Position numbers and translations under genes: made by a program. This document shows, piece after piece, positions 2,903-14,526 of a stretch of 14,526 nt of DNA. The notes under the pieces are model-generated. The model had not been told where the DNA came from. It worked only from the letters and a program-made list of their open reading frames with translations, and made no database searches. The first letter of the stretch is position 1. Each line of letters begins with the position of its first letter. The DNA lies in the NCBI GenBank assembly GCA_030691435.1, contig JAUYEK010000109.1, positions 1 to 14,526 of the forward strand. The letters run 5' to 3'. The DNA is from Sulfuricella sp. (lineage in GTDB: Bacteria > Pseudomonadota > Gammaproteobacteria > Burkholderiales > Sulfuricellaceae).

Positions 2903-4051
2903 TCAATGGTCGGGCAACACCATGCCGGACGTACCCGGGCAAACACAGCGCGGGTACTCGCGAGAGGTGTCAATGCAGCCGCCATTGGCGTACACGCCTT
3001 TCGGCTCCCGGAGCCGCAGCATGATTCCGAGGATGCGCTCGACCTCCGCCGGGTCATTCATCGAGCTTCGCACCCGCTGTTCGACCACCGTCTCGTCGAT
3101 CTGCAGCTCGTCGGCCTGATCCCGATAGGTCGCGTTCCGCCAGTGAAACAACTCCAGGCACTTCGACGTCAGCGTGTAAGGCTTATCCCGCTTCCAGAAA
3201 TTTGTGAACAAGCCGCAACCGAGGTAGAACACCCACGACCCCTCGTATCCCGTCACGTCGGAGGAACTATCGTCAGGGTTGCGAAACCAGAGCCGGTCTC
3301 CGGGGACGTAATACTTCACCGGCAAGGGTTCGCTCATGGAACCGTACTCGCGCAGAAAGACTTCGTGGAATTCCCCCGACATGATTGCGCGGGTTTCCCA
3401 CTGCCGTTGCAGCTGGCGAAACAGTTCGGGGTTGCAGTTCATCAATTCCTGCGCGATGCCGAGCAGAATGACGTACTCGGTCGCCCGGTAACAGGAAAAT
3501 GAGTACAGCTCGCCCGACACGCCGGGCTGGGTCGCTTTCTGCAGCGCCGTGATCAGGGACTTGCCGGGCAGAATCGTGAATCCGCGGCCCTTGGCATAAG
3601 TCCAGTAATCCGCTGGCCGTTCGGCCTCGGTCGTGTGAAAGGCCAGCGCTGTCCGGCGCGCCGCCTCGACGACGTTTTTCCTGATGCGAACCGCCGACGC
3701 GAGTTCATGATGGCCAGGAAACTCAAACGCAACGGGGCTCAGCAGCATGGCCAGCAGGATTTCCCGTTCGAGATCGCCGGAATTGCCCTGGGTATCGAGA
3801 TTGAGCTTCTGGCACAACTGTATCGTATCGCTGCCTGGCGCCCACTCGCTGGCGAGTTCTTCACGCAGCCGGAACCTGATGCAGAGGCGACCGCCATCCG
3901 CTTCGTCAGTGGTCTTCACATACTGATCGAGGCCGAGCGCCCCGAGTTGATCCAGAACATTCAGTCGTGCCGTCTCTATGTCCTGCGCCGTCGTCCCCCG
4001 GATATAAATCCCGCCGCGGCGCGGGTCAGGCGAATTGGTCGCACCATTCAT
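2903..4051 (-). CDS. Tgl-type protein-glutamine gamma-glutamyltransferase-like protein
   Basis: The 382-residue protein resembles Bacillus Tgl, the small transglutaminase that cross-links spore coat proteins through glutamine-lysine isopeptide bonds. The matching stretch runs from about residue 100 to 300: a VRIRKNVVEAAR helix (121-132), ADYWTYAKGRGFTILPG (147-163), then the presumed catalytic block GELYSFSCYRATEYVILL with C187. A later GDRLWFRNPD block (251-260) and GYEGSWVFYLG (268-278) match the Tgl LGDCLYFKNP and RGENVILLG regions. The cysteine is kept, but the two glutamates that support it in Tgl (Glu115, next to the Cys, and Glu187) align with S186 and S272; E270 is close by. Residues 1-95 and 320-382 have no Tgl counterpart. 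No signal peptide or TM segment is seen, so it is probably cytoplasmic. ATG 4051 has an AGGAAG site upstream. The family call rests on a remembered alignment; activity is uncertain. Confidence 0.68.
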   Translation of the reverse strand: MNGATNSPDPRRGGIYIRGTTAQDIETARLNVLDQLGALGLDQYVKTTDEADGGRLCIRFRLREELASEWAPGSDTIQLCQKLNLDTQGNSGDLEREILLAMLLSPVAFEFPGHHELASAVRIRKNVVEAARRTALAFHTTEAERPADYWTYAKGRGFTILPGKSLITALQKATQPGVSGELYSFSCYRATEYVILLGIAQELMNCNPELFRQLQRQWETRAIMSGEFHEVFLREYGSMSEPLPVKYYVPGDRLWFRNPDDSSSDVTGYEGSWVFYLGCGLFTNFWKRDKPYTLTSKCLELFHWRNATYRDQADELQIDETVVEQRVRSSMNDPAEVERILGIMLRLREPKGVYANGGCIDTSREYPRCVCPGTSGMVLPDH

Positions 4052-4153
4052 CCCTGCTTCCTTTCAGGCTTGAAAACTCGCCCCCCAGTGCGGAAGGGCA
4101 TCCACCCGACCTAAAGGCCGACGACTCCATTGCTGCATTATAAGGTTCACTCG

Positions 4154-4182
4154 TTGGGCGCGTCCGCCGCGAGGTGTATTAT
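4154..4182 (+). promoter_or_regulatory. Candidate sigma-70 promoter for the acyltransferase gene
   Basis: TTGGGC at 4154-4159 and TATTAT at 4177-4182 are separated by 17 bases. A transcript starting near 4189 would have a leader of about 40 bases before the ATG at 4229. The same 177-base divergent spacer has TATAAT on the minus strand (forward 4137-4142), which could serve the transglutaminase-like gene, but no matching -35 is seen there. Confidence 0.45.
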
Positions 4183-4228
4183 ATGTCCCTTGCGGCGCCG
4201 TGCCGATAACACCCAATGACATAAGCCG

Positions 4229-5335
4229 ATGCGTACTGATGTTTCGAGAATGCCTCTTGTGGATGCACTCAAGGCCATCGCCTGCCTGCTGATTGTATCG
4301 CATCACCTGGCATTCTACGGCCCCATGTCGGATTTGGCCTACCCGCTGATTCCCGGCCTGATCGACTGGCTGTACGAGTACGGAAGGATGGCGGTTCAGG
4401 TCTTCTTTGTCGTAGCGGGCTTTTTGCTGGCCGGGAAACTGGCGCCGGGTGGAGTATCGCTCGTCACCGACCCGGTTCGGGCCATTAAACGGCGCTACGT
4501 TCGACTGGCCATGCCGTATCTCGCCGCATTAACCCTGGCGATCGGATGCGCGGCGCTGGCAAGGGGCTGGATGGCGCACGACTCCATTCCCGACGCGCCC
4601 GATCTCCCCCAGCTTCTGGCTCATGCGCTTTTGCTCCATGACCTGCTTGATCAGGAAGCCCTGTCAGCGGGTGTCTGGTATGTGGCAATCGATTTTCAGT
4701 TGTTTGCCCTTGCCGCGACCTTGCTCTGGCTATCCGGGCGGTTCGAGCGCCGCTACCCGAAACTGAAGGCCACTGCTCCGGTTTTGATTGCGGGCTTGAC
4801 CATGGCCTCGCTCTTCGTGTTCAACCGGGATGAATCCTGGGACGAAACCGCTTTCTACTTCTTCGGATCATACGGTCTCGGGGTGTTGGGCTATTGGGCC
4901 TCGAAAAGTCCTCACCGCACTTTCTGGCTCGGGTTGCTGGGCATGCTGGCGATAGCGGCCTTGCTGGTGGATTTCCGCTCCCGGATCGCGGTTGCGGGCG
5001 TGGTCATGCTGATGCTGGGGCTGGCCAGGCAATATGGCGCCCTCAACAGCTGGCCCGTGCCGAATTTCCTGACTTATCTCGGGCGTATTTCCTACTCCAT
5101 ATTCCTCGTTCACTTCCCCCTGAGCCTGATTGTCAACGCGGCATTCTTCCGTTTTTTCCCGCACCAGCCGGCCGTCGGTGCCTTCGGGCTGGTTTTGGCC
5201 TTCTGCATCAGCATTACTGGTGGCGCCCTGTTTTTCCGATGGGTCGAAAGCCGGCCGCTCACGAACAGGACGCACTTGTTGCTACCGGCAGGATTCGTGA
5301 CAACGGGCTTGCTCGTCGCTTTGAGGAGTAGCTAA
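4229..5335 (+). CDS. Acyltransferase 3 family membrane O-acyltransferase
   Basis: The 368-residue, strongly hydrophobic protein belongs to the acyltransferase 3 family (OatA/NodX/WecH type), which transfers acetyl or other acyl groups to sugars of surface polysaccharides, peptidoglycan or lipids at the inner membrane. Hallmarks are an N-terminal VDALKAIACLLIVSHH segment (11-26) ending in the family histidine, AVQVFFVVAGFLLAGKL at 55-71, the basic loop KRRYVRLAMPY at 87-97, GVWYVAIDFQLF at 148-159, and the C-terminal LGRISYSIFLVHFPL at 284-298. About ten TM segments are expected. No SGNH domain is fused. The Shine-Dalgarno site is poor at 4229; ATG 4250 (residue 8, MPLVDALK) is an alternative start. 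The gene diverges from the transglutaminase-like gene, and the two share a 177-base control region. The acceptor molecule cannot be read from the sequence. Confidence 0.9.
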   Translation: MRTDVSRMPLVDALKAIACLLIVSHHLAFYGPMSDLAYPLIPGLIDWLYEYGRMAVQVFFVVAGFLLAGKLAPGGVSLVTDPVRAIKRRYVRLAMPYLAALTLAIGCAALARGWMAHDSIPDAPDLPQLLAHALLLHDLLDQEALSAGVWYVAIDFQLFALAATLLWLSGRFERRYPKLKATAPVLIAGLTMASLFVFNRDESWDETAFYFFGSYGLGVLGYWASKSPHRTFWLGLLGMLAIAALLVDFRSRIAVAGVVMLMLGLARQYGALNSWPVPNFLTYLGRISYSIFLVHFPLSLIVNAAFFRFFPHQPAVGAFGLVLAFCISITGGALFFRWVESRPLTNRTHLLLPAGFVTTGLLVALRSS

Positions 5336-7022: not shown

Positions 7023-9431
7023 TCAGCGCAGGCGCAGCGCATTCAGCACCACCACCAGCGAGCTGGTCGACATGCCGATAGAGGCCAGCCACGGCGGGAT
7101 CATGCCGACTGCGGCAAAGGGCAGCGCGAGCAGATTGTAAACGATTGCCCAGGCGAAATTCTGGCGCATCACGGCGATACTCGCATGGCCGGTCTTCAGG
7201 GCGCGCTGGATATCCAGCAGATTTTCCGTCAATAATACGATGTCGCTGCTGGCCCGTGCAACCTGGGTGCCGCCGCCCATGGCGATGGACACATCGGCCC
7301 CGGCCAGCACCGGCGCATCGTTGACGCCGTCACCCACCATGGCTACGACATGGCCTCGCTGCTGAAGTTCGCGTAGCGCCTGGAGTTTGTCTTCCGGTTG
7401 CAACGCGGCCTGCCAGGATTCGATACCGGCCTCGGCGGCAACGTGGGCCACCGCGTCGACCGCATCGCCGCTCAGGATGGTGACCTGCACCCCTGCCGCC
7501 TTGAGCTGCGCGACCAGCTCGCTGGCCTGTGGCCGCAGACCATCGGACAGCACGAACACCGCCATGGCGCGCCGCTCGTCGCACAACCACACCCGCGTTG
7601 CGCCTTCCGGCAGATCGCCCGGCAACGCCACCGGCTCGAACCCGGCCAAAGCGGCATTGCCCAGGGTATAGCGCACGCCGTCAATGGAACCGCTCACTCC
7701 CTTGCCCGGCAGGTTCTGTGCTTCCTGAACCGCAATCAAATCAGGGCCGGCGACCCGGCTCAGAAAACTTTGCGCCAGCGGATGCTCCGAAGCCTGCTCC
7801 AGGCTGGCCGCGAGCAACAGGCAGCGCTCTTCGTCCACGTCGGAAAAAGTGACGGTGCGCTGCAGCACCGGCTTGCCGTAGGTGAGGGTGCCGGTCTTGT
7901 CGAAGACCACATGATTGACCTTGGCCAGGGTTTCCAGGGCGTGGCCGCGCGTCAACAATATGCCGTGCCGCAGCAGGTGCGAGCCGGCGGCGGCGAAGGC
8001 CGTGGGCGCGGCGAGCGACAACGCGCACGGGCAGGTCACCACCAGCACCGACAACACGATTCCGAATGCCTGCCCCGGCTCCAGCCACCACCATACAGCG
8101 CCGACTATCGCCGTCAGAATCAGCAGGCCGACCGTGAAATGGCCCGCCACTTGATCGGCCAACTGCGCCAGACGCGGTTTCTCCGCCACCGCCCGGTCAA
8201 GCAGACGGACGATACCCGCCAGCACGGTGTTTTCACCCACTCCGGTCACGCGCAGCAGCAGCGGCCCTTCCAGATTGATGCTGCCGGCAATCACCCGCGC
8301 CCCGGCGCGCTTCGGCACCGGACGGCTCTCGCCGGTCAACAGCGCCTCGTCCACCGTGCTCTCGCCTTCGATCACTTCGGCGTCGGCGGCGATGGCTTCG
8401 CCCGGCTTGGCCAGGATGGTGTCTCCCTCGTTCAGTTCCAGCACGGGCACCGGCTGGTGCTGGCCGCCATCCAATATCCTGGTGGCCATTGCCGGCGCGA
8501 GCTTGAGCAGGTTTTCCGCCGCTTCGACCGACTTTTCCTGGGCGCCCTGCTCAAGGAAACGGCTGGAAAGCAGGAACAGGCTGAACATGGTGATGGCATC
8601 GTAGTACACCACACCGTGGCCCTGCAACGTGGCCCAGGCGCTGCCGGCGAAAGCCCCGATCACGGCCAGGGAAACCGGCACGTCCATGTTCAGGCGCTTC
8701 CCGAGCAGAGCATTCCAGGCGCTCTGGTAGAACGGCAAAGCGGCATACAACACCACCGGCAGTGCCAGCACCAGACTGAAATAGCGCAGCAGCGCAGCCG
8801 TGCTGTCCTCCATGCCGAATGCGGCGCCGGCGTACAGCGCCACCGCCAGCATCATCACCTGGCCGGAAGACAACCCGGCAATGGCGATCCTGCGCAGATC
8901 CTTTGCCCGCCGCTTGCGGCGCAGGTTTTCCTGGCGTTCGGCGCTGAAGGGATGGGCGTTATAGCCGAGCAGCTGGATTTCTTCGAGGATCTTGCTGAGA
9001 TGAATCGCCTGGTCGTCCCAGGTGATGCGGGCGCGGTGGGTGGCGTAGTTGACCTGAACCTGCAGCACGCCCGGCAACTGCTTGAGGTGCCGCTCGTTGA
9101 GCCAGATGCAGGCGGCGCAGGTAATGCCTTCGAGGATCAGGGAGGCTTCCTTGACGTGCTCGCCTTCTTGCCTGACAAAGCTTTTCTGGATGCCGGGGTG
9201 GTCGTAAAGCGCCAGCTTCTGCACTTCCTCCGGCACCACTTCGTGGCCGACGCCGGGCAAAGCGGTACGATGCCGGTAATAGTCGGTCAGCCCGTTGTCG
9301 ACGATGGTCTGCGCCACCGCCTGACAGCCGCGGCAGCACATCTCGTGCGATGCGCCCTCGATAGCCACGAGGTAATGCGCGCTGGCCGGAACCGGCAGGG
9401 CGCAATGGTAACAGGTTTTTTCGACGTTCAT
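7023..9431 (-). CDS. ccoI: Copper-transporting P1B-type ATPase CcoI (FixI)
   Basis: This is the inner-membrane Cu(I) pump that supplies copper for assembly of the CcoN CuB centre. The 802-residue protein has an N-terminal cysteine-rich metal-binding region (C7, C10, C32-C33, C36), then a heavy-metal-associated domain with ITCAACIW (C105, C108). Membrane helices follow from about 180, with the TGES actuator loop at 366-369, the CPC metal site at 467-469 in the membrane, the phosphorylation motif DKTGT at 511-515, the nucleotide-binding HP at 550-551, and GDGVNDAP at 700-707. All catalytic motifs are intact and the length is normal for CcoI. The start ATG 9431 abuts the ccoH TAA (9432-9434) directly with no Shine-Dalgarno site, so translation is probably coupled. 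The long ORF on the opposite strand is a shadow. Confidence 0.96.
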   Translation of the reverse strand: MNVEKTCYHCALPVPASAHYLVAIEGASHEMCCRGCQAVAQTIVDNGLTDYYRHRTALPGVGHEVVPEEVQKLALYDHPGIQKSFVRQEGEHVKEASLILEGITCAACIWLNERHLKQLPGVLQVQVNYATHRARITWDDQAIHLSKILEEIQLLGYNAHPFSAERQENLRRKRRAKDLRRIAIAGLSSGQVMMLAVALYAGAAFGMEDSTAALLRYFSLVLALPVVLYAALPFYQSAWNALLGKRLNMDVPVSLAVIGAFAGSAWATLQGHGVVYYDAITMFSLFLLSSRFLEQGAQEKSVEAAENLLKLAPAMATRILDGGQHQPVPVLELNEGDTILAKPGEAIAADAEVIEGESTVDEALLTGESRPVPKRAGARVIAGSINLEGPLLLRVTGVGENTVLAGIVRLLDRAVAEKPRLAQLADQVAGHFTVGLLILTAIVGAVWWWLEPGQAFGIVLSVLVVTCPCALSLAAPTAFAAAGSHLLRHGILLTRGHALETLAKVNHVVFDKTGTLTYGKPVLQRTVTFSDVDEERCLLLAASLEQASEHPLAQSFLSRVAGPDLIAVQEAQNLPGKGVSGSIDGVRYTLGNAALAGFEPVALPGDLPEGATRVWLCDERRAMAVFVLSDGLRPQASELVAQLKAAGVQVTILSGDAVDAVAHVAAEAGIESWQAALQPEDKLQALRELQQRGHVVAMVGDGVNDAPVLAGADVSIAMGGGTQVARASSDIVLLTENLLDIQRALKTGHASIAVMRQNFAWAIVYNLLALPFAAVGMIPPWLASIGMSTSSLVVVLNALRLR

Positions 9432-10217
9432 TTAGATTGCCGGGACGATGATCTCTTTTGCTGTTTCGAACCTGTCCTGTCCACGCTCGATCAGCAGCAC
9501 AGCTACCCACTGGCCTGGCTTATCCATGCTGACTTGAGCACGATAGCGCCCCGGCGCGAAAGAGTTCAAGTTGGTCGATTTCCCCGTATCTGCGCCGTCT
9601 GCCGGGTGCTTGATGGTGAGCGTCACGGTCGCACCCTCAATGGGTTGCCGTGCGCTGTCGCCGGTACTAACAGTCACTTCAGTGGCTTTGCCGAGCTTGA
9701 TCTGATCAAGTCCGGCAACCTCGATCTGCCAGCCCAATTGGCGTTGCCGCACGGATTTCTTCATATGCGAAGAAATCATCTTGGCCGCCGCCTCGTCATG
9801 CGGGATTTCCCCGGAAAAAGCGGTATAGACTTGCTTGTGCGCGGCATTCGGCAGGAACCATTGGGCAATCGAAGGCGGCAGGCCGCTGATTGAAATCGAG
9901 ACGAATGCCGCCATCAACAGCGCCAGCGCCAGAAAGAAACCGACGATGATCTTGGGAATCCAGTGCATCGGCTGCGGCGGCGACCCTATTTTTCTATCAC
10001 CCGTCAGGGTCAGCACGATCGCAGTGGCGACGTACAGCGCCAGATGGAGCGCCACTACGTCGGCGCCGGGCCAGTGGCTCAGGCTGTAGAACATGATCGC
10101 CAGAGTCGGCAACGCACCGCTGATCACGCCGCGCCAGTAGTTGGAAACACCGGCCAGACGCAGGCCAAAATACAACAGGGCGATTAGCGCAGCCCCTCCG
10201 AACAAGGTCACTGTCAT
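9432..10217 (-). CDS. ccoH: FixH/CcoH-family cbb3 assembly protein with N-terminal membrane extension
   Basis: CcoH (FixH) is a membrane-anchored protein needed for stable assembly of the cbb3 oxidase and contacts CcoN. Of the 261 residues, about 85-258 match the FixH layout: one TM helix (about 88-110, IPKIIVGFFLALALLMAAFVSIS) and a periplasmic beta-rich domain containing AKMISSHMKK, GWQIEV and APGRYRAQV....GQWVAVLLIERG. The first 75 residues are extra. They form three further hydrophobic segments (about 3-24, 30-48 and 53-71), so the protein likely has four TM helices, compared with one in the standard form of about 160-170 residues. The family call rests on the C-terminal domain and the position between ccoG and ccoI. 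The ATG at 10217 has AAGGAT upstream, overlapping the ccoG stop, and the stop abuts ccoI, so the three genes are tightly coupled. Confidence 0.85.
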   Translation of the reverse strand: MTVTLFGGAALIALLYFGLRLAGVSNYWRGVISGALPTLAIMFYSLSHWPGADVVALHLALYVATAIVLTLTGDRKIGSPPQPMHWIPKIIVGFFLALALLMAAFVSISISGLPPSIAQWFLPNAAHKQVYTAFSGEIPHDEAAAKMISSHMKKSVRQRQLGWQIEVAGLDQIKLGKATEVTVSTGDSARQPIEGATVTLTIKHPADGADTGKSTNLNSFAPGRYRAQVSMDKPGQWVAVLLIERGQDRFETAKEIIVPAI

Positions 10218-10221
10218 CTAT

Positions 10222-11667
10222 TTATCCTTCATGCTTGGCGTAAAAACGGGCTTTCTTTATGACTGCCTGATCCGGCTTTTTCAGCGGTGTAATGATGAAT
10301 TCGATTTCACTCACCTGGCTCGCCATGGCGGGAGGAAGCTTGACGTTCGCCAGCACCATCAAACTCTTGCCCTGGCGCACGCTGATCTCGCCCATCTCCC
10401 CAAAATCCACCGCACCCTCCGGAAGCCCGCGCACACTGATGCGGTAATCCTGCACCTCTTGCGACTTGTTGGTAATGTGGATCTGGTAACGGTTGCGGAT
10501 ATCGCCGTTCGACAGCACCACGAACAGCGGCTGGCGCACCGGCTGGACGGAAAGTTCGGTCTCGGAACGCGAGGCGATATTGTATACCAGCACAACCACC
10601 ATCACGAGTATCGCTGCGCCATAGCCCAGGGTGCGCAACCGCAGCCAGTCCAGATGCACCTTGCCCGGATTCCTGCTTTCGATGTTGATTTCCGAATCGT
10701 ATCGTACCAACCCACGAGGGAAGCCGACCGAATCCATAATGTTGTCGCAGGCGTCAACGCACAAACCGCAGGAAATGCACTGGTATTGCAGCCCTTTGCG
10801 GATGTCGATACCCGCCGGGCACACCTGCACGCAGAAGCCGCAATCGATGCAATCGCCTATTCCCTGGGCCTGTCGCTCCTCGCGAGTCCTGGTGCCTGCG
10901 CGCGGCACGGCGCGCCCTGCCGACCCCTCGCCGCGCTGGAAGTCATAGTAGGGCGCCAGGGTTTCCGGCTCGTACATCACGCCCTGAAAACGCGCGTAAG
11001 GACATATGTAGATGCAGACCTGCTCGCGTGCCAGTGCAGCCGCCACGTAGGTGGTCACGGTTAAAATCAGCACGGTGAAATAGGCTACAGAAGGCAGATC
11101 GGCGGTGAAGAAACGCTGGGTCAACTCGGGCGCATAACCGTAGTACATGATGAAGCTATAGGCGGTAATGAAGGCCAGAAGCAGCCACAAGGCGTGTGTG
11201 GCGCCATATTTGGCCACCTTCTCCGCATTCCATGGCTGCTTGTAAAGACGAATGCGGGCCGGGCGCTCGCCCTGAACCCATTGTTCGATAAAAATAAAAG
11301 CGTCCGTCCACAAAGTCTGGAAGCAGAAATAGCCGCAGAATGCCCTCCCTACAAGTCCGGTTGCGAAGAACAGCAGAGCCGCGGCAATAAACAGCAGCAG
11401 AGCGAGTGAGATCAGATCCTGCGGATAGAACACCAGGTCGAAGACGAAAAAGCGGCGCCCGACCAGATCAAACAATACCGCCTGCGCAGGCGCATCCTGG
11501 CGCGTCCAGGGCAGCCAGGGCAGGAGGAAATAAACGGCATAGGCCAGCACCATCACGGAGGTCTTGAAGGTACGGAATGCGCCTTTAACCGACCGAGTGT
11601 AGATCGGAATCCGCTTCTGGAACAACTCTTCGGATTCTTCACCTGCCTGCAAGTTTTTCATCTTCAC
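10222..11667 (-). CDS. ccoG: Polyferredoxin-type cbb3 accessory protein CcoG (FixG/RdxA)
   Basis: CcoG is a membrane iron-sulfur protein shown in Rhodobacter to reduce Cu(II) to Cu(I) for cbb3 assembly. The 481-residue product has N-terminal TM helices (about 36-55, 84-104, 155-175 and 193-212) with cysteine pairs C111/C115 (CGYFC) and C218/C222 near them. Two 4Fe-4S clusters of the ferredoxin type follow: C273, C276, C279, C283 and C297, C300, C303, C307. A further TM helix (about 347-364) leads into a C-terminal Ig-like domain. All cluster cysteines are intact. The given start is GTG 11667, with AGGA 7 bases upstream; ATG 11661 two codons later (MKNLQAG) is an equally possible start. It is the first gene of the ccoGHIS unit, with its own promoter region, and its stop is 4 bases from the ccoH ATG. 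Confidence 0.95.
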   Translation of the reverse strand: MKMKNLQAGEESEELFQKRIPIYTRSVKGAFRTFKTSVMVLAYAVYFLLPWLPWTRQDAPAQAVLFDLVGRRFFVFDLVFYPQDLISLALLLFIAAALLFFATGLVGRAFCGYFCFQTLWTDAFIFIEQWVQGERPARIRLYKQPWNAEKVAKYGATHALWLLLAFITAYSFIMYYGYAPELTQRFFTADLPSVAYFTVLILTVTTYVAAALAREQVCIYICPYARFQGVMYEPETLAPYYDFQRGEGSAGRAVPRAGTRTREERQAQGIGDCIDCGFCVQVCPAGIDIRKGLQYQCISCGLCVDACDNIMDSVGFPRGLVRYDSEINIESRNPGKVHLDWLRLRTLGYGAAILVMVVVLVYNIASRSETELSVQPVRQPLFVVLSNGDIRNRYQIHITNKSQEVQDYRISVRGLPEGAVDFGEMGEISVRQGKSLMVLANVKLPPAMASQVSEIEFIITPLKKPDQAVIKKARFYAKHEG

Positions 11668-11715
11668 AATCCAATCCTGTCGATTCTCGTCATATGGCTA
11701 AAAACATTCAAATTC

Positions 11716-11729
11716 GTTCCGTTCGGAAC
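11716..11729. promoter_or_regulatory. Perfect palindrome (possible operator) at the ccoG transcription start
   Basis: GTTCCG-TT-CGGAAC is a perfect inverted repeat with a 2-base centre. It begins 5 bases downstream of the candidate -10 (11735-11740, read on the minus strand) and so overlaps the predicted transcription start, a usual place for a repressor operator. I do not recognise the binding protein. Confidence 0.45.
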
Positions 11730-11734
11730 ATGAG

Positions 11735-11774
11735 ATTATCCAAATATTCAAAACGCCTCACTGACAAAAATCAA
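11735..11774 (-). promoter_or_regulatory. FNR/ANR-like box and -10 element for ccoGHIS
   Basis: On the minus strand TTGAT-TTTT-GTCAG (complement of 11761-11774) matches the ANR/FNR pattern TTGAT-N4-GTCAA at all but the last base. A GATAAT -10 (complement of 11735-11740) lies 28-33 bases from the centre of the box. That places the box near -40 to -41.5, the position of class II FNR-activated promoters. FNR control would fit a high-affinity oxidase assembly operon used at low oxygen. Confidence 0.55.
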
Positions 11775-11787
11775 TTCCCGCAAAAAA

Positions 11788-11819
11788 CAAAAACCCCGTC
11801 CGTTAGGCCGGGGTTTTTG
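11788..11819 (-). terminator. Rho-independent terminator after ccoP
   Basis: An 11-base perfect inverted repeat (11788-11798 and 11809-11819; CCCCG/CGGGG core with A/T flanks) with a 10-base loop is followed on the minus strand by more T's. It starts 24 bases past the ccoP stop and separates ccoNOQP from ccoGHIS. The A/T flanks would let it work in either direction. Confidence 0.9.
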
Positions 11820-11842
11820 GTTGAGCGGATGCTCTATTTTAA

Positions 11843-12772
11843 TTACTTTTTGCTGCCGCCGCCGAGCACATCATGCACGTAAACCGTCAGAAGCTTGATC
11901 TGGTCAGCACTGAGGCGACCATTCTGGGCAGGCATCACGCCCTTGTTCAGGCCGGAGGTGATTACCGCCTTGACCGCAGCGACTTTCTTGTCCGCGCTGC
12001 CCTGGGCAGGCACGTCGGCCCACAGCCAGATCTTGTCGGTCAGGTTGGCCGAGCCGATGTCCTGGTTGCCTTTAGCATCCGCACCGTGACATGCAATGCA
12101 GAGACCCTTGCCATGGAACAGTTCATCGCCGACCGCGATTTTGGCTGCATCCATTTTTTCGCCAGACAGGCTCAGTACATAGTTGGCAAGACTCTCGATT
12201 TCGCCCTCGTTGAGGTCGGCACCCCCCTTGGCCGGCATGATGCCGTGACGGCCATTGGTGATGGATGCCTGGATCTTGTCGTGAGTACCGCCATAGAGCC
12301 AGTCGTCGTCCGTCAGGTTGGGAGCAAATGCCATCTTGCCCTGACCACCGCTCTGATGACAGGCGGCGCAGTTGTCTGCGAACACCACTTTGCCGGCAGA
12401 AGCCACGAAGTTCGACAACTCCGGATTTTTGGCGAACTGCTCGTAGGGTGTGGCCGCGACCATGTCGAAATACTTCTTCTGGGATTCACGGGCGTCCTGC
12501 AGGTCTTTCATCAGCAGGGCGCGCGTGCTCCAGTGCGTGGTTTTCTCCACACCCTTGTCGTTCTTGTAAGTGATGGTGGTAATGCCTTTAGTAAAACTAT
12601 CGCCCAGCGGCCAAGCCGGGTAGGCCACCCAGTACACCACCGAGAAAATGATGGTGGCGTAGAAGGACCACAGCCACCAGGCGGGCAGCGGATTGTTGAA
12701 CTCCTGCAAATCCCCGTCCCAGACGTGGCCGGTGGTTTGCACATTGCTCTCTTGCGAGTTTCCCTGACTCAT
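11843..12772 (-). CDS. ccoP: cbb3 oxidase subunit III, diheme cytochrome c CcoP
   Basis: CcoP is the membrane-anchored diheme c subunit that passes electrons from soluble cytochromes c to CcoO. The 309-residue protein has the typical N-terminal HVWDGDLQEFNNPLPAWWLW (16-35), a TM helix at about 33-53, and two cytochrome c domains. Heme sites are CAACH (135-139) and CIACH (225-229), with axial methionines M179 (HGIMPAKGG) and M280 (GVMPAQNG). All heme ligands are present. ATG 12772 has AAGGAA upstream, 23 bases beyond the ccoQ stop. The ORF ends in GGGSKK shortly before a strong terminator, so it is the last gene of the structural operon. Confidence 0.97.
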   Translation of the reverse strand: MSQGNSQESNVQTTGHVWDGDLQEFNNPLPAWWLWSFYATIIFSVVYWVAYPAWPLGDSFTKGITTITYKNDKGVEKTTHWSTRALLMKDLQDARESQKKYFDMVAATPYEQFAKNPELSNFVASAGKVVFADNCAACHQSGGQGKMAFAPNLTDDDWLYGGTHDKIQASITNGRHGIMPAKGGADLNEGEIESLANYVLSLSGEKMDAAKIAVGDELFHGKGLCIACHGADAKGNQDIGSANLTDKIWLWADVPAQGSADKKVAAVKAVITSGLNKGVMPAQNGRLSADQIKLLTVYVHDVLGGGSKK

Positions 12773-12795
12773 GATTAGTTCCTTTGCCTCAATAT

Positions 12796-12957
12796 TTAAT
12801 CGTCGTGGAGCGGTATGTTCTTGTGGGATTCCAGGCGCTCGCCGCGCTTCTTGCTACCATACACATAGAACAGGATGGCGCAGAACGTGATGAAGAAAAT
12901 CACCAGCGCCAGCGGCTTGGCATTTTCCAACCGGGTAAACCACATAAGCCATTCCAT
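12796..12957 (-). CDS. ccoQ: cbb3 oxidase small subunit IV CcoQ
   Basis: This 53-residue ORF lies between ccoO and ccoP on the same strand, starting MEWLMWFTRLENAKPLALVIF and ending HKNIPLHDD. It has one TM helix (about 15-33) followed by a basic stretch (SKKRGERLE), as in CcoQ, the non-catalytic subunit that stabilises CcoP and the complex. A GGGAGG Shine-Dalgarno sequence lies about 6 bases before ATG 12957. The ccoO stop is 13 bases upstream. Identification rests on size, topology and position between ccoO and ccoP, because the subunit is poorly conserved. Confidence 0.9.
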   Translation of the reverse strand: MEWLMWFTRLENAKPLALVIFFITFCAILFYVYGSKKRGERLESHKNIPLHDD

Positions 12958-12970
12958 AGCGCCCTCCCGT

Positions 12971-13723
12971 TTAACGGAATTTCACGAAGCTGTCGTTGTC
13001 GAGCTTGCTGAAGTCAACCATCGTACCCAGCACCTGCAGGTAAGCTACCAGCGCATCCATTTCGGTTACGTCGGCGGCGTTGCCGTCATATTTGCCGGTT
13101 TGCGCCTGCTCGATCAGGTTCTTCCGCGCATCGGGGATGTGCAACTGCTTCGCCACATCCGCGCCGAACTCCTTGACGTTGTTGTCGTGCTCGGCCTTAT
13201 TGGCGGAGTAGGGCACACCGGTCATGCGCAGCGCTTTCATGCGGTCCGCCACGTCGGAAGTATCCAAAGCGGTGAGCAGCCAGGGGTAATTCGGCATCAC
13301 CGACTCGGGCACCATCGAGCGCGGCGCGATCAGGTGCTGCACCTGCCACTCGTTGGAATATTTCTTGCCGACTCGCGCCAGATCCGGGCCAGTGCGCTTG
13401 GAACCCCACTGGAACGGATGGTCATACTGCGATTCCGCCGCCAGCGAGTAATGCCCGTAGCGCATGGACTCATCGCGGAACGGACGGATCATCTGCGAAT
13501 GGCACAGGTAGCAGCCCTCGCGGATGTAGATGTCGCGACCGCGCTGCTCCAGCGGGCTGTAGGGGCGAACCATCTTGATCCCATCGGCGTTTTTCACATC
13601 CTCGACGGTACCCTTGAGGAAGAACAGCGGCACGATTTCAACCAGACCGCCGATACTGATGGCGATCAAGGTCAGCACCAGCATCAGCCCAATATTTTTT
13701 TCAATTTTTCCATGTTCGATCAT
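12971..13723 (-). CDS. ccoO: cbb3 oxidase subunit II, monoheme cytochrome c CcoO
   Basis: CcoO is the monoheme cytochrome c subunit that delivers electrons from CcoP to the CcoN active site. Of 250 residues, a TM helix at about 12-35 anchors the periplasmic domain. The heme site CYLCH lies at 71-75 within [17 protein letters not shown], and the axial methionine is likely M143 in [11 protein letters not shown]. The [32 protein letters not shown] block (88-119) is characteristic of the family. ATG 13723 lies 98 bases past the ccoN stop, an unusually wide gap for this tight operon, and the gap carries two hairpins. Confidence 0.97.
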
Positions 13724-13748
13724 GATCTTTCCTTATGTTAAGGTGAAA

Positions 13749-13804
13749 CTCGCGAAGCGAGACTTCGTCCCTCTCTCCCTCTGGAAGAGAGTTAGGAGAG
13801 AGGG
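13749..13804. repeat. Two inverted repeats in the ccoN-ccoO spacer
   Basis: CTCGC-GAA-GCGAG (13749-13761) is a perfect short hairpin. CCCTCTCTCC (13769-13778) pairs perfectly with GGAGAGAGGG (13795-13804) across a 16-base loop. Neither is followed by a U run on the minus strand, so they are not typical terminators. The CCCTCTC/GAGAGGG type of palindrome resembles repeats scattered between genes in many betaproteobacteria. In the mRNA they could act as processing or stability signals between ccoN and ccoO. Confidence 0.7.
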
Positions 13805-13821
13805 TTTCAACCCGAGTCCCG

Positions 13822-14526
<705 letters not shown>

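Follow-up and report, generated by a model that had tools for sequence, protein, structure and literature searches.

What does a relative of a spore-coat cross-linking enzyme do in a betaproteobacterium? The question is raised by a gene in a 14,526-nucleotide stretch from Sulfuricella sp. (order Burkholderiales; assembly GCA_030691435.1, contig JAUYEK010000109.1), hereafter the window. Judged from its sequence, the product, here called TGL, is a bacterial relative of the spore transglutaminase Tgl with altered catalytic surroundings. An earlier note on the window had recognized this kinship and had called the target of the protein unknown; the latter point can now be narrowed through a link, missed by the note, between the gene and cyanophycin metabolism. 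In the sampled genomes of its order, TGL nearly always co-occurs with genes for the synthesis of cyanophycin, a polymer that stores nitrogen, which suggests this polymer, and not the spore, as its field of work. We hold the link to cyanophycin to be very probable and regard this tie as the discovery, and the reaction set out below as a proposal.

The family profile PF20085 was matched in 4 of 398 genomes drawn across the phylum (the window's genome and three others of its order), in 35 of 349 genomes of the order and in 8 of 22 genomes of the family, the window's own genome being included in the last two counts. Cyanophycin synthetase (CphA) was counted with TIGR02068 at E 1e-80 in a 349-genome draw from the window's order, taken to comprise the genomes of the TGL draw since the identifiers recur, and was found in 130. 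The 35 TGL genomes span 15 families, and cphA was present in 33 of them, compared with 97 of the 314 genomes that lack TGL. Of the two misses, the match in one (G692) is another protein, with a front that we take to be DUF4157-like, and the gene in the other (G551) is truncated at a contig end and has Ala at position 186. CphA was likewise detected in 48 of 50 named TGL genomes, a set partly overlapping the order sample; at least six of the 50 recur there, as identical CphA coordinates reveal, so that the one count is not independent of the other. The window's own family was not informative, with CphA in 21 and TGL in 8 of its 22 genomes. A mobile or phage gene was considered and rejected, no TGL match being found in 72,556 plasmid and 50,697 phage records and none in PHROGs at E 0.01; a defence gene was likewise rejected, as PADLOC gave no match for TGL or for the adjacent acyltransferase.

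Genome neighborhoods pointed in the same direction. TGL relatives are encoded on 259 genomic stretches, and neighborhood counts refer to the best 80 of the 259. Clustering of open reading frames (ORFs) placed cphA within 19 of the 80 loci, where TGL is joined at either end of the betaproteobacterial cyanophycin cluster, which consists of two cphA genes, an ATP-binding cassette (ABC) transporter (NF052233) and a DUF1854 protein (NF052234). Five gene orders were seen: DUF1854 then TGL on one strand (eight loci, four of them named Thiobacillus); TGL facing DUF1854 (eight loci, whose genera we take to be Alcaligenaceae); TGL facing cphA (L036); cphA then TGL (L015); and cphA, acyltransferase, TGL (L090). 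At locus L043, NCBIfam models named two cyanophycin synthetases, the cyanophycin metabolism-associated ABC transporter and the DUF1854 protein among the neighbors; the second synthetase there is above the cut-off of a subfamily model only, and the other loci were named by clustering with the L043 genes. The other 61 loci had no cphA within the fetched stretch; 49 of their genomes were searched, and 47 contained it. TGL is not named in the excerpted text of two accounts of the cyanophycin cluster (PMC10687191, PMC10206079), neither of which pairs "cyanophycin" with "transglutaminase", and a search of the open-licence literature by title and start of abstract, which leaves most subscription journals outside, found no report of the link.

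The family and fold of the protein were tested. A Pfam profile search matched PF20085 over residues 87–349 at 125.8 bits (gathering cut-off 23.7), the protein matched Geobacillus Tgl (PDB 7c9j) at E 2.3e-7, and its predicted structure has the Tgl fold, so that neither a missing profile match nor a different fold speaks against the proposed kinship. A first model built from 29 close sequences, with a predicted local distance difference test score (pLDDT) below 50 at residues 231–272 and no Foldseek match under E 0.001, was replaced. The protein does not reach the cut-off of the NCBIfam Tgl equivalog NF002869 (38 bits vs 307). The GD motif, a mark of cluster II papain-like proteins (PMC10318531), is present as G251-D252, with G invariant and D in at least 90% of 117 rows.

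The alignment with 7c9j bears out what had been read from the 382-residue ORF: Cys187 falls on the catalytic Cys of Tgl, and serines occupy both glutamate positions, Ser186 that of the Glu preceding the Cys and Ser272 that of the second catalytic Glu, with Glu270 two residues ahead of Ser272, on the Arg of WRGE in the alignment with 4p8i. A residue alignment was made from 120 of 2983 close-homologue matches listed, 120 of 730 spore Tgl matches listed, the window protein and 116 locus proteins. Among the listed close homologues, which belong to the window protein's clade (type I), Ser186, Cys187, Glu270 and Ser272 were each kept in 120 of 120. In the listed spore Tgls, the two catalytic positions are occupied by Glu in 120 and 119 of 120, and the position of Glu270 by Gln (91), Arg (27) or Lys (2). 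Residue counts in loci L013–L092 are selected, since these were retrieved by peptide patterns containing the motifs; of the 28 type I loci that came from a hidden Markov model (HMM) search, the window included, 27 had Ser186, and Glu270 and Ser272 were present in all 27 readable sequences. The conservation of these odd residues in the listed homologues marks a constrained group, not an oddity of one protein, and the strict conservation of the Cys, Glu270 and Ser272 counts against a decaying protein. In B. subtilis Tgl, the C116A, E115A and H200A variants are inactive and E187A retains about 60% activity, and R185 is a tunnel residue on the front, Q-substrate side (PMC6490927). Compared with spore Tgl (PF20085; 4p8i, 7c9j), TGL of Burkholderiales shares Cys116 and differs in E115, which is Ser in type I and Gly in a second clade (type II), in E187, which is Ser, and in R185 or Gln, which is Glu; an extra N-terminal domain and the cyanophycin-gene link set it apart further. 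The position of His200 depends on the alignment: MAFFT put it at N306 (N 16, H 14, D 3 and F 1 of 34 type I sequences) and an ungapped hairpin alignment at F285, and Asn284 would lie near its place provided that the hairpin is aligned without gaps. The NlpC/P60 cysteine amidases have their catalytic His at what we take to be the place of Ser272. Family, fold and the loss of both catalytic glutamates are supported.

We propose, at roughly an even chance, that TGL and its branch of the NlpC/P60-like Tgl fold, found here in Burkholderiales, serve cyanophycin metabolism and that TGL is a working cysteine amide-transfer enzyme; catalytic action on cyanophycin itself is possible, at somewhat under an even chance. 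The target of Cys187 would be a cyanophycin amide, and most likely the isopeptide joining Arg to the beta-carboxyl of the Asp side chain; we liken this bond to the Gln side chain used by Tgl because it is chemically a substituted side-chain amide. The resulting aspartyl thioester could react with water, which would remove the side chain, or with an amine, which would give cross-links or an attachment to protein. An arginine-bearing acyl donor would go well with the acidic Glu270, which at the substrate mouth takes the place of the Arg or Gln of spore Tgl, and we would see in the neighboring acyltransferase a second accessory, separable from TGL, of the cyanophycin system. Only tentatively, and at a rather low probability, do we suggest the whole picture, in which a Tgl-fold cysteine enzyme attacks the Asp-Arg isopeptide without a Glu dyad and provides some betaproteobacteria, most of them without a recognizable cyanophycinase, with a means of their own to trim, cross-link or anchor cyanophycin, the hydrophobic N-terminus of type II and the membrane acyltransferase pointing to extracytoplasmic handling too. 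If active, the protein would be an example of Tgl-fold chemistry that does without the Glu partners of the spore enzyme.

Several observations weigh against this proposal. In the window itself, cphA is not adjacent to TGL, which sits between ftsX and the acyltransferase gene. Among the 50 named TGL genomes, two (L032 and L071, both metagenome-assembled) yielded no CphA, and all p-values are inflated by shared ancestry. Only 33 of 130 CphA genomes carry TGL, which is therefore not a general depolymerase of the order. Cyanophycinase (CphB, TIGR02069), which belongs to a different family and has only a candidate role in the same pathway in common with TGL, is equally rare with TGL (2/33) and without it (6/47; Fisher p 0.46), and a simple replacement of it by TGL was accordingly rejected. 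The acyltransferase was found in 5 of 33 TGL genomes and in 18 of 47 without TGL, mostly apart. Finally, there is no evident general base, because both glutamates and possibly His200 are gone, and the protein may bind rather than catalyze.

Among the alternatives, a true protein cross-linker as in spores, which would join Gln and Lys side chains of ABC/DUF1854 proteins or of proteins of the cyanophycin granule and for which the polymer, able to carry Lys, would be an amine donor at most, would account for the retained Tgl fold and Cys and for the 16 of 80 loci in which DUF1854 directly adjoins TGL. A further point in its favor, the presence of DUF1854 in 75 of 80 CphA genomes, holds whether or not TGL is there and is not informative; sampled rows of both types differ from spore Tgl at the two dyad glutamates and at the Q-side mouth residue, and the loss of activity in B. 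subtilis E115A (PMC6490927) argues against normal cross-linking, which we consider unlikely. A non-catalytic member, which would use the fold to bind cyanophycin or a granule protein and Cys187 for a structural or redox role, would fit the lack of a Glu partner and of any evident base where one would be expected; the Cys does not vary among the rows sampled from the two clades, which we judge unusual for a binding-only derivative, and we give this explanation, too, a small chance. Shared ancestry or habitat alone, with TGL and cphA persisting in the same Burkholderiales lineages without joint work, could explain why 97 of 130 CphA genomes have no TGL and why many of its neighbors resemble plain synteny, as we judged to be the case in Polaromonas (neighbors labelled by eye, presumably PhzF, PGAM, Lrp and TlpA-like); it is made improbable by the five gene orders beside cphA and the spread over 15 families. 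A shifted dyad, in which Glu270 replaces E187 in a normal transglutaminase, draws on the invariance of Glu270 among the rows sampled from both types and on its place two residues before Ser272, next to a strand that begins at residue 271 of the model (DSSP), and is very improbable, as the alignment of Glu270 with R185, a front-side residue outside the catalytic center (PMC6490927), makes a simple Glu270 dyad less natural.

The proposed role in cyanophycin metabolism bears on how betaproteobacteria use or process the polymer with so few cyanophycinases, a question that TGL and the acyltransferase render testable. In a survey of CphA1, 903 of 1,614 genomes were betaproteobacterial and 2.8% of the 903 had a recognizable cyanophycinase, the other clades in Table 2 having one in 70–100% (PMC10206079). 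A cluster of two cphA genes and an ABC transporter without cphB has been described, with cphB analogues set as future work (PMC10687191). In the window's own, incomplete genome, TIGR02069 had no match at E 1e-15. The acyltransferase adjoins TGL in 9 of the 80 loci and in the window, and was found in 23 of 80 genomes with CphA (the window's own included; one is a 46-residue piece) and in none of 80 without (p 4e-8). Its coordinates put it no more than 300 bases from CphA in four genomes (G574, G040, G252, G423). Its confinement to CphA genomes in these samples points to a second cyanophycin accessory, mostly found apart from TGL; the word "acyltransferase" does not occur in PMC10206079. In genome G503, some 350 bases separate the acyltransferase gene from a match to cyanophycinase.

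In a quick tree built from 117 rows, type I, type II and spore Tgl came apart, each set off by a branch of support 99–100. Type II, for which 120 of 1059 matches were listed, had Gly186, Ser272 and Glu270 in 44 of 44 sampled rows. By a crude 12-residue hydropathy rule, which is not a signal-peptide predictor, 93 of 120 listed type II and 2 of 120 listed type I matches had a hydrophobic N-terminus; loci L004–L009, L123, L124 and L128 encode such type II proteins. Ahead of the residue-92 column lie a median of 90 residues in type I and 19 in spore Tgls, giving an N-terminal extension of about 70 residues in place of the roughly 95 estimated earlier. Profile comparison suggests a relationship between the N-terminal parts of the two types (hhalign E 2e-4, probability 47%); spore Tgls are without such an extension. 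Net charge was compared among type I, type II and spore Tgl, and gave nothing clear. Genome G015 contains one type I and one type II gene, about 8 kb apart. At L125:1551-2891, a TGL-like domain behind an N-terminus that we take to be DUF4157-like adjoins tail-like genes, which appears to be a different use of the fold.

Table 1. Coordinates of the TGL gene, its residues and its neighbors in the window.
Feature	Positions	Strand	Basis
TGL-family gene, type I, Burkholderiales	2903..4051	minus	ATG start, 382 aa; PF20085 match, 7c9j alignment, predicted fold
N-terminal beta-alpha-beta-beta domain (predicted), about residues 12-65	3857..4018	minus	DSSP of model; hhalign; lengths
Ser186 codon, at Tgl Glu115 position	3494..3496	minus	7c9j alignment; residue counts
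Cys187 codon, Tgl nucleophile position	3491..3493	minus	sequence; invariant in sampled rows
Glu270 codon, at Tgl Arg185 position (Gln in most spore Tgls)	3242..3244	minus	invariant in sampled rows of both types
Ser272 codon, at Tgl Glu187 position	3236..3238	minus	7c9j alignment; residue counts
Asn284 codon (Asp in type II), 12 residues past Ser272	3200..3202	minus	residue counts
Divergent intergenic region between two cyanophycin-linked genes	4052..4228		177 bases
Acyltransferase_3 membrane acyltransferase gene, divergent neighbor of TGL	4229..5335	plus	profile match; genome samples

The gene order in the window is ABC ATPase (ftsE), FtsX protein (ftsX), TGL, Acyltransferase_3 and a sigma-32 type rpoH (Table 1). 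The intergenic region contains a sigma-70-like match on the minus strand at 4206-4178, a consensus match only. The assembly comprises 453 contigs with a completeness of 79%, and the cphA gene of this genome lies on a separate contig (L127:7866-9404), truncated at the contig end; queE-, tol/pal- and ruv-like genes, named by eye, were also seen on that contig. Immediately ahead of ftsE, at 236-1288, lies a gene for a DUF1016/YhcG-type PD-(D/E)XK nuclease, a candidate defence protein with a strong match to the PADLOC models for PDC-S02 and a match to phrog_22762. The minus-strand genes at 7023-14499, named by eye as copper-ATPase, ccoG-like and cytochrome cbb3 oxidase genes, appear ordinary.
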